From the NCBI GenBank assembly GCA_903831865.1, contig CAIKZH010000013.1, positions 1-38,112 on the forward strand: 38,112 nt of DNA, given 5' to 3'. The position numbers and the translations under genes are program-made. The notes under the pieces are model-generated. The model was not told the DNA's origin and did no database searches. It saw only the letters and a program-made list of their open reading frames with translations. Numbering within the stretch: the first letter of the stretch is position 1; every line of letters begins with the position of its first letter. Shown one piece after another: positions 26,573 through 35,390 of this stretch. This DNA comes from an uncultured Coriobacteriia bacterium (lineage in GTDB: Bacteria > Actinomycetota > Coriobacteriia > Anaerosomatales > PALSA-660).

Positions 26573-27370
26573 CTACGACTCCCCGAGATAGGCCTTGCGC
26601 ACGCGCTCGTTGACGAGCAACTCCTTGCCTGTCCCCTGCAGAGCCACGCTCCCCGTCTCCAGCACGTAGCCGCGGTCGGCGATCTGGAGCGCCATCGCCG
26701 CGTTCTGCTCGACGAGTAGGATCGTGATGCCCTGCTCGTTCATCTTCTCGATGGTCTCGAAGATCGCCTCGACCACCACCGGCGCCAGCCCCATCGACGG
26801 CTCGTCGAGCATGAGGAGCGTCGGAGCGGCCATGAAGCCACGGCCGGTCGCGAGCATCTGCTGCTCGCCGCCGGAGAGGGTGCCGCCCTTCTGCCAGCGG
26901 CGCTCTTTGAGCCGGGGAAACAGGTCGAAGACCTGCTCCAGGGACTCAGTGACCCCGGCCGGGTCGCTCGTGCGCAGGAACGCTCCCATCTGGAGGTTCT
27001 CCTCCACGGTCATCCGAGGAAAGATGCGACGGCCCTCGGGGACCTGGATGACGCCCTTTGCGGTCACGTCGTGCACCTTCATGCCCGAGATGACCTCGCC
27101 CATGAATGAGATGTCGCCGGTGCGAGGATGCAGCAGGCCGGAGATGGTCTTGAGCGTCGTGGACTTGCCGGCTCCGTTGGCGCCGATAAGCGTCACGATC
27201 TCGCCCTTGTGCACATCCAGGCTGATGCCCTTGAGGGCTTCGATCGCCCCGTAGAAGGTGTGGATGTCACCTACATGGAGCACGACGTCGCCGGCCGCAG
27301 AGGCGGATCCGGTTCCTGGTGCGTTCACGGTCGCTTGCGTGTCGCTCATCTGCTGCTCCGCCTCACTCAC
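26573..27370 (-). CDS. livF: Branched-chain amino acid ABC transporter ATPase LivF
   Basis: A 265-residue ATPase of the high-affinity branched-chain amino acid transporter. It has Walker A GANGAGKST, signature LSGGEQQMLATGR, Walker B LLMLDEPSMGLAP and the LivF-specific IQVPEGRRIFPRMTVEENL. The first about 28 residues are a nonconserved extension. GTG 27368-27370 overlaps the livG stop as GTGA. ATG 27347-27349, with GGAG six bases before it, is an equally possible start. It is the last gene of the livKHMGF operon and ends at a hairpin. Confidence 0.95.
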   Translation of the reverse strand: MSEAEQQMSDTQATVNAPGTGSASAAGDVVLHVGDIHTFYGAIEALKGISLDVHKGEIVTLIGANGAGKSTTLKTISGLLHPRTGDISFMGEVISGMKVHDVTAKGVIQVPEGRRIFPRMTVEENLQMGAFLRTSDPAGVTESLEQVFDLFPRLKERRWQKGGTLSGGEQQMLATGRGFMAAPTLLMLDEPSMGLAPVVVEAIFETIEKMNEQGITILLVEQNAAMALQIADRGYVLETGSVALQGTGKELLVNERVRKAYLGES

Positions 27371-28152
27371 GCCTGCTGCGCCAACATCGCCTCGGCGCCC
27401 TTGCCGAGATACGCTTCGATGACCTTCGGGTTGCGCTGGATCTCCACCGGTTTGCCCTCCGCGATGAGCTCACCGAAGTCGAGCACGTAGATCCGGTCGG
27501 CGATGTCCATGACGACCTTCATGTCGTGCTCGATGAGCAGCACGGTCACCCCGGTCTTGCGGATGCGACCCACCAGCTTCGTGAGGTCCGCGGACTCGCG
27601 TGTGTTCATGCCGGCTGCCGGCTCGTCCAGCAGGAGCAGCTTGGGCTCGGTCGCGAGTGCACGAGCGATCTCGAGCCGGCGCTGCTGGCCGTAGGGCAGG
27701 TTCTTCGCCAGCTCGTTCGCCTGGCCGATCAGCCCGACGAAGCGGAGCCACTTGGCGGCCTCGTCAGTCGTGCGCTGCTCTTCCCGCTTGAAGCCCGGTC
27801 CGCGCAGGATCGCCTGCCACGGCCCCGCGGTGCTGCGGGTGTGGCGGCCCATCATGACGTTCTCGAGGGTCGTCATGTTCGCGAACAGCCTGATGTTCTG
27901 GAACGTGCGGGCGATGCCCATCTTGCAGATCTGATGCGGCTTCTTGCCCGCGACCGAGACCCCGTTGAAGGCGAGCACGCCCGACGTCGGCTTGTAGATC
28001 CCCGTCAGCATGTTGAACATTGTGGTCTTGCCAGCGCCGTTCGGCCCGATGAGGGCCACGATCTCGCCCTCGTCGATGTGGATGCTCACATCGTTGACAG
28101 CCTTCAGGCCGCCGAACTGCATCGTTGCATTGGTGGCTTCGACGATCGCCAT
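27367..28152 (-). CDS. livG: Branched-chain amino acid ABC transporter ATPase LivG
   Basis: A 261-residue ATPase partner of LivF. Walker A is GPNGAGKTTMFNMLTG, the Q-loop region is ARTFQNIRLFANMTTLENV, the signature is the LivG-type LPYGQQRRLEIARAL, and Walker B is LLLLDEPAAGMN. The C-terminal IRKTGVTVLLIEHDMKVVM and GKPVEIQRNPKVIEAYLG are standard for LivG. The ATG at 28150-28152 has AGGAGA just upstream. It starts 27 bases after the livM stop. Confidence 0.96.
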   Translation of the reverse strand: MAIVEATNATMQFGGLKAVNDVSIHIDEGEIVALIGPNGAGKTTMFNMLTGIYKPTSGVLAFNGVSVAGKKPHQICKMGIARTFQNIRLFANMTTLENVMMGRHTRSTAGPWQAILRGPGFKREEQRTTDEAAKWLRFVGLIGQANELAKNLPYGQQRRLEIARALATEPKLLLLDEPAAGMNTRESADLTKLVGRIRKTGVTVLLIEHDMKVVMDIADRIYVLDFGELIAEGKPVEIQRNPKVIEAYLGKGAEAMLAQQA

Positions 28153-28179
28153 ATCTCTCCTCGTGTCTGCTCGCGCGGC

Positions 28180-29418
28180 CTACAGGTCGTGGCCGGAGCC
28201 GTCTATCCCGTGCTCGACCGCCCACAGGGACTGGTCCTCTTCCTCGAGGGTCTTCTCGTCCTCGGGGTGCAGCTCGCGTGCCCGCCGTTTCGACGGAAGG
28301 ATGCCCTGTGGTCGCCACGCCATCATGACGACCATGAGCAGGCCGAAGAGCAGGTACCGGTAGTTCGCGATCGCGGACGCCGTCGGCGCGTCGATGTGGA
28401 AGACGCTCGCGAGCATCGGAGACTGCGCGACGCCCTGTATGATGGCGGGGAGTCCGCCGATAAGCGCCGCACCGATGATGACCCCCGGTATGGATCCCAT
28501 GCCGCCGAGGACGACCATCGAGACGACGAACACGGACTCGAGGAAGCTGAAGCTGTCCGGCGTGATGAACCCTTGGAAGTTGGCGAACACGACTCCGGCG
28601 AGACCGCCCCACAGGGCGCCCAATGCGAACGCCCACAGCTTCGCGGTCCGGATGTTCACGCCCACCGAGGCCGCCGCGACCTCGTCCTCCCGCATCGCCA
28701 CCCACGACCTTCCGAGTCGCGAGTTGTCGAGGCGGCGGACGATGAAGATCGTGAAGCATATGAGCAGCACCACGACGTAATACCAATAGAGGTTCACAGA
28801 GAACTGGAACGAGAACCCGACGGCAGGGATGTTGATCACAGGCTTCTGCATCGCGACCAGACCCACCGGGTTCGGGACGTTGATGCTCATGCCCATGGCG
28901 CCGTTCGTGAGCCCGAGGAAGTTGTTGGTGGCGAGGATCCGGATCAACTCTCCGAAACCGAGAGTGACGATCGCCAAGTAGTCTCCGCGAAGCCTCAGGA
29001 CAGGAGTGCCGAGGCTGATCCCCGTGAGCGCCGCGATGAGCGCGGCCACCGGCAGCATGAAGATGAACGTCGAGCTGGTGAGGAACTCTCTCAGCCCCAC
29101 CGCGCCGATGTGCGAGACGGCCTTCACGAACAGGTTGCCCACTACAGCCGCCGAGTAGGCTCCCATGGCGTAGAAGGCGATGTAGCCGAGGTCGAGCAGG
29201 CCGGCATAGCCGACCACGATGTTCAGGCCAAGGGCCAGCATCACGTAGATGCCGACCACGGCCAGGATGCGCACGAGAAAGCTCATGGCCACGAAACCCT
29301 GGAGAACCACGGGCAGGAACACGAGCAGGATCGCACCGACCACGGCCAGGGCGATCTTGCCCTTGGACCAGCCGCCGTCGCCGACCTTCGTCTGGATGTC
29401 CATCTTGCTTCCGCCCAT
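28180..29418 (-). CDS. livM: Branched-chain amino acid ABC transporter permease LivM
   Basis: A 412-residue integral membrane protein with about nine to ten helices. LivM features are NIVVGYAGLLDLGYIAFYAMGA, LRLRGDYLAIVTLGFGEL and LGRSWVAMREDEVAAASVG, the ATPase docking loop. The C-terminal tail of about 40 residues (from RRARELHPEDEKTLE) is hydrophilic and acidic. The ATG at 29416-29418 has AAGGTG upstream, with a second ATG five codons later. It lies four bases after the livH stop. Confidence 0.95.
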   Translation of the reverse strand: MGGSKMDIQTKVGDGGWSKGKIALAVVGAILLVFLPVVLQGFVAMSFLVRILAVVGIYVMLALGLNIVVGYAGLLDLGYIAFYAMGAYSAAVVGNLFVKAVSHIGAVGLREFLTSSTFIFMLPVAALIAALTGISLGTPVLRLRGDYLAIVTLGFGELIRILATNNFLGLTNGAMGMSINVPNPVGLVAMQKPVINIPAVGFSFQFSVNLYWYYVVVLLICFTIFIVRRLDNSRLGRSWVAMREDEVAAASVGVNIRTAKLWAFALGALWGGLAGVVFANFQGFITPDSFSFLESVFVVSMVVLGGMGSIPGVIIGAALIGGLPAIIQGVAQSPMLASVFHIDAPTASAIANYRYLLFGLLMVVMMAWRPQGILPSKRRARELHPEDEKTLEEEDQSLWAVEHGIDGSGHDL

Positions 29419-29422
29419 GGCT

Positions 29423-30376
29423 CTACACCTTTTCCACGACGGACTCGCCGAGCAGGCCGCCCGGGCGGAATATGAGCACGAGAATGAGGACGATGAAGGC
29501 GACCACGTCCTTATAACCTGTCGAGAGGAAGCCGCTCGCCAGCGACTCGACGATGCCGAGCAGGAAGCCGCCGAGGATCGCGCCTCGCAGGTTCCCGATG
29601 CCGCCGAGAACGGCGGCTGTGAACGACTTGATGCCCGGGATGAATCCCATGTTCCAAAGCACGACGCCGTAGTACATGCCGTTGAAGATGCCGGCCACGG
29701 CGCCCAGCGCCGGGCCGATGAAGAACGTGAACGTGATGACTCGGTTGATGTCGATGCCCATCAGTCCCGCCGCTTCGCGGTCCTGAGAGGTCGCACGCAT
29801 CGCCTTGCCCATGCGGGTCCTGGCGACGAAGGTGTCGAGCGCCGTGAGCAGGATGATCACGGTGACGAGTATGAAGATCTGCAGCGTCGACACCTGCGCC
29901 GACCCGTATATCGTGATCTCCTTGACCGGGAAGACCTGCGGGAACGGCAGCGCCATCGTGTTGACCCACAGCAGCACCGCGTTCTGCAGGAAGATCGACA
30001 CTCCGATGGCCGAGATCAGCGGCGCCAGACGCGGCGCGTTGCGCAGCGGCCGGTACGCGAATCGTTCCACCAGCATGCCGAGACATCCCACCGCGATCAT
30101 CGCCACGACGAACACGAGCGCGAACAGGATGACAAGACCGAACCCGCTGCCCTTGAAGAAGGCGGCGAGCCCTCCGACGAGATGGGGGTTCGTCAGCCCG
30201 GTGAGGGTGAACAGCCCCACGTAGGCACCGACCATGAACATCTCGCTGTGCGCGAAGTTGATCATGAGCAGGATGCCGTAGACGAGCGTGTAGCCCAATG
30301 CCACGAGAGCGTACATGCTCCCCAGCGTGATCCCGTTGATCAGCTGCTGGACGATGGTTGCGAGCTGCGCCTGCAA
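29423..30376 (-). CDS. livH: Branched-chain amino acid ABC transporter permease LivH
   Basis: A 317-residue permease with about eight helices. It begins with the LivH segment QQLINGITLGSMYALVALG and has LVYGILLMINFAHSEMFMVG, ERFAYRPLRNAPRLAPLI, TRMGKAMRATSQDREAAGLMG (docking loop) and GGIGNLRGAILGGFLLG. The start is TTG at 30374-30376, six bases after GAGGAA. No ATG or GTG nearby is better placed. It follows livK by 167 bases, and this gap contains a hairpin that could lower permease expression relative to the binding protein. Confidence 0.95.
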   Translation of the reverse strand: MQAQLATIVQQLINGITLGSMYALVALGYTLVYGILLMINFAHSEMFMVGAYVGLFTLTGLTNPHLVGGLAAFFKGSGFGLVILFALVFVVAMIAVGCLGMLVERFAYRPLRNAPRLAPLISAIGVSIFLQNAVLLWVNTMALPFPQVFPVKEITIYGSAQVSTLQIFILVTVIILLTALDTFVARTRMGKAMRATSQDREAAGLMGIDINRVITFTFFIGPALGAVAGIFNGMYYGVVLWNMGFIPGIKSFTAAVLGGIGNLRGAILGGFLLGIVESLASGFLSTGYKDVVAFIVLILVLIFRPGGLLGESVVEKV

Positions 30377-32725: not shown

Positions 32726-33009
32726 GCCTGGTCCGCCGTGCCGGGAGCGCGAGGCGCCTGCGCGGACGCGGCGAGCCGCTCGAGCGCAGACCGATCGAAC
32801 CCGACGATCACCTGCTCGCCGTGAACTATCACAGGGACCGATGTCCCTCCCGAGAGCTTCTTCACTCTCTCGACCGCGTCCGCCCGCTCCTGCCCGGTGA
32901 GCTTGTCGAGCTCGACGACGTCGAAAGCCACGTCGCGCTCGGTGAGGTAGCCACGGGCCTGACGACAGTACGGGCACGTGGAGAGGGCATACACCGTGAT
33001 GTCCGCCAT
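32722..33009 (-). CDS. Glutaredoxin-like redox protein (CPYC)
   Basis: A 95-residue thioredoxin-fold protein. The active-site CPYC (C12, C15) follows the first strand (ITVYALST), and TSVPVIVHGEQVIVGF contains the cis-proline and the GF segment of glutaredoxin/NrdH types. The tail is Ala/Pro-rich. ATG 33007-33009 with AAAGGA seven bases upstream fixes the start, and a long open frame above it is spurious. It probably reduces disulfides in the cytosol, perhaps with thioredoxin reductase as for NrdH-like proteins of anaerobes. It is convergent with the NfeD-like gene and divergent from the gene at 33107. Confidence 0.88.
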   Translation of the reverse strand: MADITVYALSTCPYCRQARGYLTERDVAFDVVELDKLTGQERADAVERVKKLSGGTSVPVIVHGEQVIVGFDRSALERLAASAQAPRAPGTADQA

Positions 33010-33106
33010 GTGAGAGTCCTTTCGTATGGCGCGGGCACGCAGGCCCGCTGTGGGAGTATCTTCCCGCTGCGTGCCACAGCGATCGTCGCAGCAGGAAGGA
33101 CCGCCG

Positions 33107-33655
33107 ATGTCTCGCTCCGACAAGAAGCGCACGACTCCGGAGGGCGCGGCCCCCGCCCTCCTGCGGCGCACCCTGCGGATCGTGGTCGTCCTGGCCGGCG
33201 TCGCCCTTCTGATCATCGGAGGGTGGGCCGTGTGGGCGCGGCTGCAGGGACCGCTTCCCGCGGCATCCGACCGGCCGGAGCTCCTTGCGCTCCGCGGCAA
33301 GCTCGTCGCCGTACAGGATGCGATCACGCCGATCGCCGTCTCGTTCACCGCAAGGACGGCCACCCACACCCTCGACGTGACCGAGTACGAACAGCGGATA
33401 GCCGGCGCGCGCCGGGTCGTCGAATCCGTGAACAACGTGGACCTCACATCGACTCGGGCCCTCGACATCCGCGACAACATCCTGACCGGCGGCTCCGACG
33501 TGCTCACGGGGTTCCAGCAAGCGCTGGACGCTCTCCGGAGCAACGACACCAGTGCGTCAGACGCCGCCGGGCAGCTCGTCGACCAGGGGATCGCGGAGCT
33601 GACGTCCGCCAAACAGGACCTCGACCGGCTCCTCGGACCAGCGGCCACGAAGTGA
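33107..33655 (+). CDS. N-terminally anchored protein of unknown function
   Basis: A 182-residue protein with a basic cytosolic N-terminus, one membrane helix (about 23-43) and an external domain of about 135 residues predicted to be mainly helical (for example QRIAGARRVVESVNNVDL and LVDQGIAELTSAKQDLDRLL). I do not recognise the family. The ATG at 33107-33109 follows GGAAGGA. Its TGA overlaps the GTG of the PIG-L gene as GTGA, so the two are translationally coupled and likely act together at the outer face of the membrane. Confidence 0.78.
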   Translation: MSRSDKKRTTPEGAAPALLRRTLRIVVVLAGVALLIIGGWAVWARLQGPLPAASDRPELLALRGKLVAVQDAITPIAVSFTARTATHTLDVTEYEQRIAGARRVVESVNNVDLTSTRALDIRDNILTGGSDVLTGFQQALDALRSNDTSASDAAGQLVDQGIAELTSAKQDLDRLLGPAATK

Positions 33656-34476
33656 CCCCGCGAGGGCGGTGGCTGCTGGCGGTGCTCGTCGTGGGGCTCC
33701 TCATCGTTGCGGCCGGGGTCACGTTCGCCCTGCGGCCCGGCGGGGGGCTCGCCGACGCCGCGCCCGCAGACCCTGATGCCGCCAAGATCGCGGGAGAGCG
33801 GCTTCTCGCGTCGCGAGACGCGACGATCCTCGTGGTCGTCGCCCACCCTGACGACGCCGAGTATTGGGCAGGCGGCACGCTGGCGCTCCTCGCGAGGCAC
33901 AACCGAGTCGTACTGCTCATGGGCACGTCCGGCGACAAGGGTGATGCCGGACTCGTGCCGGGACTGGGTGCGATCCGAGAGCGCCTTCAGCGCGAGGCCG
34001 GAAGGATCCTGGGGTACCGGGACATCGTCTTCCTGAGGGATCCCGACGGCGGGCTGGCTGCCTCAACGGCCTATCCCGGTGAGGTACGCCGGGCGTTCGC
34101 CACGTATCGGCCCACGATAGTGGTCACGTTCGACATCGCCGAGGAAGCCGCCGTCTACCACCACCCCGACCATGAGGCGGCCGGCCGCGCCGCGACGGCC
34201 GTCGCGAACGACCTCGGAGGCATCACGCTCTACCTCATACACACGCGTGCACCGGACGTCGTCATCGACTACGACGCGGTGCGGACCGAGAAGGCCAGGG
34301 CGTTCACGCTCCTCGGGAGCTATCGTGACTACGCGCCGGTCGTAGGCTGGCTCAACCCCGCCCTGCGCACGATCGGCGGGCGCCGTCCACTGTCGTATGG
34401 TGGACGCGCGGTCCTGCCGAGCGTCGGGATCTCGTACGGCGAGCTGTTCCGCGAAGTGGTCGTCCCGAAGCGCTGA
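33652..34476 (+). CDS. Membrane-anchored PIG-L family deacetylase
   Basis: A 274-residue protein of the LmbE/PIG-L family, zinc enzymes that remove acetyl groups from N-acetylglucosaminyl substrates. The N-terminal helix (about 6-27) is a signal anchor. The zinc motif AHPDDAEYWAGGTLALLA (family AHPDDE) and the second site HPDHEAAGRAA are intact. MGTSGDKGDAG and FLRDPDGGL lie between them. The N-terminus has Arg before the helix, so the catalytic domain should lie outside the cytosol, unlike the cytosolic mycothiol and bacillithiol enzymes. GTG 33652-33654 overlaps the stop of the preceding gene as GTGA. The substrate cannot be told. Confidence 0.88.
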   Translation: MTPRGRWLLAVLVVGLLIVAAGVTFALRPGGGLADAAPADPDAAKIAGERLLASRDATILVVVAHPDDAEYWAGGTLALLARHNRVVLLMGTSGDKGDAGLVPGLGAIRERLQREAGRILGYRDIVFLRDPDGGLAASTAYPGEVRRAFATYRPTIVVTFDIAEEAAVYHHPDHEAAGRAATAVANDLGGITLYLIHTRAPDVVIDYDAVRTEKARAFTLLGSYRDYAPVVGWLNPALRTIGGRRPLSYGGRAVLPSVGISYGELFREVVVPKR

Positions 34477-34490
34477 GGGGAGTCCGAGTC

Positions 34491-35390
34491 ATGTGTCAGT
34501 TCTGCGTGCAGCACGGTGACGGCAGATCCTGGTATCTCGAGGCGTCGAGCTATGCCTACGACCTCGAGCGCGACCTTCGCCGGCGGCGGTACATGGTGGA
34601 CTTCGTCCAGGAGTTCGCGGGCAACCGCGAGTCCGCCCTCACGAACCTGGCGAGACTGGAGCGTCTGCCCGCGCCCCTTCGCGACCTGGGGCGAGCGGTG
34701 GCCAGCAGCCGCATGAAGAAGCTGCACTACGGACAGCCCGTCCCCATGGAGGAGTGCGACGAGATCTTCGGCATCGCGACCTCGATCGTCCGGCTCCCCT
34801 GCCCGTGTCGTTACTGGGCGGGGACTCACGACGAGGGCTATTGCCTCGCGATCACAACGAAGCCGATCGACACCGTGCTCGACGAGGCCTTCCGCGACTA
34901 CGACGTCGGCCCCGACACATCCAAGTTCCAGTACCTGACTCGCGCGGAGGCGATGGAGCTGCTTCGCCGCAGCGAGGAGGAAGGACTCATGCACTCTGTG
35001 TGGACCTTCCTGACGCCGTTCATCGGCGCGATCTGCAACTGCAGTCTCGAGGCGGGGTGCATGGCGATGCGTATCACGGTCGAGCATGCGACGCCGATCA
35101 TGTTCAAGGGTCACAACGTCGCGACGTGCGACGCAGAGGCGTGCGTGGGCTGTGCAGAGTGCGTCGAGCGCTGCCCGTTCGGGGCGCTCGCCGTGGGGCC
35201 GCGCACCCGGAAGGCCACTGTGGATCCGAAAGCGTGTTACGGATGCGGCGTCTGCCGTTCCGCGTGCGAGCGCCACGCGCTCAGCCTGACCCCCCGACAA
35301 GGCGCGCCCATCGCCTCGCTCGTCACGACCGGCGTCGGCGGTCTCAGGCCGCGGACCCCGGATCGCGCCCGGGAAGCGGCCGCTCGGTGA
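34491..35390 (+). CDS. Cys-rich dicluster [4Fe-4S] ferredoxin-like protein
   Basis: A 299-residue iron-sulfur protein. The C-terminal part (about 210-265) has two classical ferredoxin motifs, C218/C221/C224/C228 (CVGCAECVERCPF) and C249/C252/C255/C259 (CYGCGVCRSACE), each able to bind one [4Fe-4S]. The N-terminal 200 residues hold further cysteines in odd patterns: MCQFC (C2, C5), C89, PCPCRYW (C104, C106), C118, and FIGAICNCS (C182, C184) with C190 and C213. I recall similar uncharacterised proteins from sulfate reducers and other anaerobes, opening with MCQFC and containing FIGxICNC. The ATG at 34491-34493 has GAGGGGAG upstream. A role in electron transfer or metal chemistry is likely, but its partner is unknown. 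Confidence 0.85.
   Translation: MCQFCVQHGDGRSWYLEASSYAYDLERDLRRRRYMVDFVQEFAGNRESALTNLARLERLPAPLRDLGRAVASSRMKKLHYGQPVPMEECDEIFGIATSIVRLPCPCRYWAGTHDEGYCLAITTKPIDTVLDEAFRDYDVGPDTSKFQYLTRAEAMELLRRSEEEGLMHSVWTFLTPFIGAICNCSLEAGCMAMRITVEHATPIMFKGHNVATCDAEACVGCAECVERCPFGALAVGPRTRKATVDPKACYGCGVCRSACERHALSLTPRQGAPIASLVTTGVGGLRPRTPDRAREAAAR

Follow-up and report, generated by a model that had tools for sequence, protein, structure and literature searches.

A conserved protein of Coriobacteriia that joins a 2[4Fe-4S] ferredoxin domain to an undescribed cysteine-rich domain

The window analysed here, a 38,112-nucleotide stretch from an uncultured member of the Coriobacteriia, encodes a ferredoxin-like protein in which many cysteines lie outside the iron-sulfur motifs. 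Are these cysteines features of a family, and what would they be for? A preliminary description of the sequence had proposed that they could bind a third cluster or another metal and had ranked the protein as a candidate for undescribed biochemistry. We find that this is a real, conserved protein, in which a ferredoxin of a known kind is joined to a cysteine-rich domain undescribed in the libraries searched, and that it probably carries electrons in anaerobic microbes.

Two domains in one protein

Table 1. Positions of the gene, its motifs and adjoining features in the window. Fractions are counts among distinct class I sequences; A2 is the wider alignment.
Feature	Position	Strand	Basis
PIG-L family deacetylase frame (PF02585)	32821-34476	+	ends 14 bases before gene
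GGGGAG, likely ribosome binding site, 8 bases 5' of ATG	34477..34482	+	sequence reading
Coding sequence, class I cysteine-rich ferredoxin, 299 aa	34491..35390	+	ORF, ATG start
N-terminal motif MCxFCxxHGxGxxWY (C2, C5, H8, W14, Y15)	34491..34535	+	C2, C5, W14 71/71; H8, Y15 70/71
Motif HxGQ....E (H79, G81, Q82, E87)	34725..34751	+	G81, Q82, E87 71/71; H79 70/71
First-half cysteine motif PCxCR...C (C104, C106, C118)	34797..34847	+	71/71; invariant in A2
Second-half cysteine motif ICNC....C (C182, C184, C190)	35031..35063	+	71/71; invariant in A2
2[4Fe-4S] ferredoxin domain (C218, C221, C224, C228; C249, C252, C255, C259)	35127..35288	+	Pfam Fer4_7, VIA-align

The translated gene contains 18 cysteines (residues 2, 5, 89, 104, 106, 118, 182, 184, 190, 213, 218, 221, 224, 228, 249, 252, 255 and 259). 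Eight lie in two CxxCxxCxxxC motifs and ten elsewhere, exactly as had been counted, and the strings singled out earlier (MCQFC, PCPCRYW and FIGAICNC) are all present in the translation. Residues 1-212 hold nine cysteines, against a background of 0.98% cysteine in the neighbouring called genes (binomial P about 3e-4). Conservation is a stronger argument than this enrichment. C2, C5, C104, C106, C118, C182, C184 and C190 were found in 71/71 distinct class I sequences, although in rows from added neighbourhoods the start was located by a pattern requiring C2, C5, H8 and G9, which are therefore conserved by construction there. The same four residues were invariant (18/18) in alignment A1, whose rows were chosen without that pattern. 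C89 is lineage-limited (47/71), and C213 is private to the window protein (1/71). The view of the ten extra cysteines as family features thus holds for eight; the alignment proposed as a check, with lack of conservation as grounds for giving the idea up, left it standing. C104, C106, C118, C182, C184 and C190 were the only cysteines invariant throughout A2. As for other residues, H8, W14, Y15, H79, G81, Q82, E87 and R107 were present in 69 to 71 of the 71 class I sequences.

The C-terminal part reads as a 2[4Fe-4S] ferredoxin domain, with both motifs and Pfam matches over the cut-offs (Fer4_7, 38.5 bits, cut-off 27; Fer4, 33 bits, cut-off 21.1). All eight motif cysteines were present in 71/71 class I sequences, and the clostridial ferredoxin 1fca superposed on the domain with a VIA-align Z above 10. 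The last 27 residues of the protein, mostly private to it, had a pLDDT <50.

The N-terminal domain is undescribed in the libraries searched (Pfam and NCBIfam). Residues 1-212 gave no match in either library at E<=0.1, nor did the corresponding region in three out of four further class I proteins tested; the fourth (L031) gave a RelE match at 0.055 only, which is sub-threshold. The N-terminal profile found no credible match among PDB sequences. Pentatricopeptide-repeat proteins reached strong E-values in this search and were rejected, because matches to 25-residue stretches accumulate along the tandem repeats, none of them significant by itself. Two class II or fusion domains likewise gave nothing significant against the PDB. 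Modelled alone, the N-terminal domain had a mean pLDDT of 79.8 and a pTM of 0.73. Foldseek with this model gave a best E of 0.27, and FliM/CheC-like domains (best VIA-align Z 4.6, rmsd 4.6, 118 aligned) were set aside as too weak for use. With the whole model, Foldseek returned FwdF and ferredoxin domains, for which the VIA-align rows rest on the C-terminal part. Neither sequence nor fold comparison gave a clear solved relative of the N-terminal domain, which does not show that the fold predicted for it is new. According to the preliminary description, related proteins of anaerobes lack an assigned function, and we found no characterised homologue of the N-terminal domain in the copies of the PDB, Pfam and NCBIfam searched. 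Likewise, no assignment of function was found in the open-access literature searched, as far as titles and the openings of abstracts show.

In the predicted model, helices cover most of residues 11-78 and are followed by two strand-helix-strand units, the first with C104, C106 and C118 and the second with C182, C184 and C190. Residues 1-20, including C2 and C5, had a pLDDT of only 55-59, so the placement of this pair is unsure.

A PIG-L frame also precedes the homologous gene at another locus (L009), with a gap of 34 bases, and co-transcription of the PIG-L frame with the cysteine-rich ferredoxin gene is possible. In the window, a DegV gene faces the cysteine-rich ferredoxin gene. An untyped tRNA called by ARAGORN at 34189-34279 (minus strand) was rejected; its type is undefined, it lies inside the PIG-L reading frame and it is probably false. 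Long open frames opposite probable transporter genes (27319-29475 on the plus strand, and others) are likely artefacts of high G+C content.

Distribution and classes of relatives

A scan of genome contigs returned whole-length homologues of the 299-aa protein at 18 loci, on contigs whose titles name Coriobacteriia and Actinomycetota as well as Acidobacteria, Armatimonadetes and Helarchaeota. The N-terminal profile matched 55/69 genomes of the order (43/51 among high-quality ones), and the family is near-core in this order of Coriobacteriia. In the phylum sample, the N-terminal part matched 38/296 genomes, weak and partial matches included. One Helarchaeota genome (Asgard archaea; L081-L094) had 19 superfamily matches, mostly to class II proteins.

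We divided the relatives into class I (full length, with an MCxxC start), class II (mostly 310-400 aa) and FAD fusions (~940-1000 aa). Cysteines per half of the N-terminal domain were counted in 64 rows, some of them from the same genomes. Class I had 3 + 3 in 32/42 rows and 4 + 3 in 9/42, the fourth cysteine adjoining the third; the remaining row (L015) was a pattern mis-hit, and A1 shows it as 3 + 3. Counts were 4 + 5 or 6 in 19/19 class II rows and 4 or 5 + 3 in 3/3 FAD fusions. Both the cysteine and the ferredoxin domains of class II (CxCR..C..C / CNCCxCxC / Fer4) and of the Coriobacteriia FAD fusions are homologous to those of the window protein (tblastn E 6e-14 to 6e-15). They differ from class I in lacking the MCxxC start, in having more cysteines in the halves and in falling on the opposite side of a branch at 100/100 that sets class I apart (48-row subset, long branches flagged). 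A CxxC is located elsewhere in two of the three FAD fusions, and one fusion (L056) has no N-terminal CxxC. The cysteine part of the class II and fusion proteins tested passed no library cut-off.

Two of the long frames (L072 7275-10091 and L075 7489-10494) are fusions of the cysteine domain, Fer4, Fer4_20 and a pyridine nucleotide oxidoreductase (Pfam for L075 only). The FAD fusions adjoin HypB and, in L075, also a gene that is HypA-like by sequence reading.

What the cysteine-rich domain may do

We give even chances to the reading that we favour, in which the protein would be a multi-cluster electron-transfer adaptor that is not tied to one enzyme. The third cluster of the preliminary description is plausible and may be an understatement: the arrangement of the cysteines would suit extra clusters, and their pattern suggests two rather than one. 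In the mechanism we propose, each of the two strand-helix-strand halves would carry one CxC...C triplet, and the N-terminal CxxC would supply the two missing ligands, one per half. The N-terminal domain could then hold two additional [4Fe-4S] clusters, four in the whole protein, forming a short wire between an oxidoreductase and a soluble low-potential electron pool; partner enzymes would vary among lineages, as the changing gene neighbours suggest. Since class II lacks MCxxC and has more cysteines per half, we infer that one lost ligand in each half is made up for by the N-terminal CxxC. A strict rule of four ligands does not accommodate the FAD fusions, which keep three cysteines in the second half and, in L056, lack the N-terminal CxxC. 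Fusion of the wider domain to FAD and pyridine-nucleotide modules counts in favour of the adaptor. Electron transfer is also a plainer reading than the undescribed biochemistry that had been envisaged.

A catalytic site, too, would be consistent with the invariant His, Gln, Glu, Arg and Trp. On that account, the N-terminal domain would be catalytic or would hold an unusual cluster, either a double-cubane-like pair on 3 + 3 cysteines, as the six cysteines that alone are invariant through A2 might suggest, or a cluster whose open iron site lies close to H79, Q82, E87, R107 and W14, each conserved in 69 to 71 of 71 sequences. Double-cubane [8Fe-9S] clusters sit on six cysteines, in a matching fold. 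No double-cubane protein was listed among the Foldseek and VIA-align matches to the N-terminal model, and no solved protein matched it by fold or sequence. Furthermore, this account would leave the conserved C2 and C5 unused, and the ferredoxin domain and the neighbouring ferredoxin gene suit plain electron transfer; we consider a catalytic or unusual-cluster domain unlikely. The noncubane cluster of HdrB-like CCG-domain proteins is associated with a CCG motif that has an adjacent cysteine pair, and the window protein has no two adjacent cysteines.

A bolder proposal, improbable in our judgement, is that the cysteine-rich domain represents a new iron-sulfur fold common to bacteria and archaea. 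Its six core cysteines would carry a double-cubane-like or site-differentiated pair, with extra ligands shifted between the N-terminal CxxC in class I and the two motifs in class II. The protein would then be a general low-potential electron hub of anaerobes, possibly one missing electron-entry module for complex I or Mrp machines that have no NADH module.

It is similarly doubtful that the protein is a redox sensor, a regulator or a cluster- or metal-handling protein instead of an electron wire. An N-terminal stretch of some class II relatives, among them most of the Helarchaeota matches, may be a winged helix, with only sub-threshold matches of L087 to HTH_69 (0.0054) and MarR (0.0073). However, class I proteins, including that of the window, have no such match, and their neighbours are often redox enzymes. 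Zinc binding, with the extra cysteines merely holding the fold together, is quite unlikely. CxC and CxxC motifs can bind zinc, and metals are indistinguishable from sequence alone, but the same chain has a ferredoxin domain, and the CxCR spacing, the clustered class II cysteines (CNCCxCxC) and a genomic context with anaerobic redox enzymes all speak against zinc.

Gene neighbours and comparison with known systems

Inspection of gene neighbours across genomes, which had been proposed earlier as a check, revealed redox or ion-pumping systems beside the gene in several lineages, changing by lineage. This pattern counts in favour of the adaptor, and an adaptor used with different oxidoreductases is the most economical account of the protein. 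Counted against the adaptor are the lack of a strong neighbour of the gene in the window and the failure to find in the window's own genome the small ferredoxin that accompanies outer relatives. In outer class I, a small ferredoxin gene lies next on the same strand in 18/19 places, a point in favour of the adaptor; the one miss (L060) lies on a 3-kb contig. Against the adaptor, the small ferredoxin adjoins the gene at 0/20 loci of the close clade (W, L009-L024, L057-L059), some of which end at contig ends and one of which (L057) is from the same genome as L017. Dropped from these counts were L026 (cut), L088 (the same place as L025) and L140 (the same genome as L023). Small ferredoxin-like genes were seen directly 3' of class I genes at L025, L061-L071, L076, L086 and L137-L139. 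Five copies read out were 86-108 aa, and the three copies tested matched Fer4 models only, with no NCBIfam family at 1e-5.

Other neighbours vary between families. Aldehyde oxidoreductase (AOR) lies directly downstream of the gene in four genomes of family f83, which represent two genera; at L020 and L022, the AOR gene is followed by called ThiS and ThiF genes. In six genomes of family f19, AOR and an Fe-alcohol dehydrogenase share the strand of the gene and lie no more than about 8 kb away. This one-strand set comprises the gene, the small ferredoxin, SCP2, the Fe-alcohol dehydrogenase and AOR, not all of them called in every genome, with a metallo-hydrolase added at L138. The f19 cluster (L137-L139, L065, L067) suggests oxidation of hydrophobic alcohols or aldehydes. 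At nine loci of family f2, the gene is the last of an Mrp-type operon. The periplasmic-binding-protein ABC transporter, DegV, PIG-L and other recurrent neighbours were rejected as general partners, being divergent, convergent or lineage-limited.

The f2 operons raise the possibility that the protein is the electron-input subunit of a proton- or sodium-translocating machine of the Mrp or complex I type, which we regard as very unlikely. PF00361 antiporter subunits lie directly upstream on the same strand, at 35-122 bases, in 9/53 loci (Pfam checked for L163 only), and the operon at L175-L177 looks Mrp-type, its genes being named by sequence reading. All nine loci are of family f2, however; L058 and L059, also f2, retain the gene with no adjoining Mrp operon, and there is no Mrp operon beside the gene in the window. 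The several PF00361 subunits of the L175-L177 operon include one of about 890 aa; in the stretch examined there, sequence reading revealed no hydrogenase genes. A complex I lacking NuoEFG has been reported in two cultured Anaerosomatales strains (PMC9686372), and the window-type protein is one of many candidates for electron entry in the order.

It is highly improbable, despite the f83 and f19 arrangements, that the protein instead serves one tungsten AOR subtype as its dedicated electron-transfer subunit, in the manner of AorA or Wor1S. A fixed AOR subunit had looked strong from three adjacent MAGs and was weakened by the order-wide test, in which 47 of 69 genomes had both gene and AOR subtype, 8 the gene only, 9 the subtype only and 5 neither (Fisher p=0.12), with the subtype called at E<1e-150 and two genomes with weaker matches (G351, G362) scored as absent. 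Four genomes that are 97-99% complete (G332, G339, G341, G359) carry the gene and gave no match to the one AOR query. With the order-wide result, these genomes indicate that the protein is no fixed subunit of AOR. In the window's genome, moreover, the gene does not adjoin that of the AOR catalytic subunit. In the phylum sample, the four genomes of the class with close homologues, which are from two genera of one order, have the AOR subtype, and the other 18 genomes of the class have neither. Six genomes outside the class (G043, G059, G105, G191, G250, G275) have the subtype, and none of them yielded a class I match over the full length; in G105, a single weak match covers residues 92-206. No literature on Coriobacteriia with AOR, or on AOR with WorS, was found in the open-access papers searched.

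These observations leave a domain that is near-core in its order and common to Asgard archaea, for which no library match or solved relative was found. Should it carry two clusters, it would add to the known iron-sulfur domains and offer a testable hub for electrons in organisms where their entry into respiration is unexplained. Otherwise, its conserved cysteines still require another role.

Compared with a bacterial 2[4Fe-4S] ferredoxin, the window protein has the same two CxxCxxCxxxC motifs, within residues 210-270, and adds some 210 preceding residues with eight invariant cysteines and no Pfam or NCBIfam match. The known AOR partners AorA, Wor1S and ASOR beta are reported to carry four clusters (PMC12096430), so electron wires of this sort exist. 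The 16 conserved cysteines of the window protein are compatible with the same number of [4Fe-4S] clusters, and in one lineage (f83) an AOR gene is next door. The window protein differs from these polyferredoxin subunits in its size (299 aa, whereas the ASOR subunit has about 18 kDa), in matching 9mqx_E, the corresponding small chain of an AOR complex of known structure, over residues 199-271 only, and in its family's presence in four fairly complete genomes that gave no AOR match at all.
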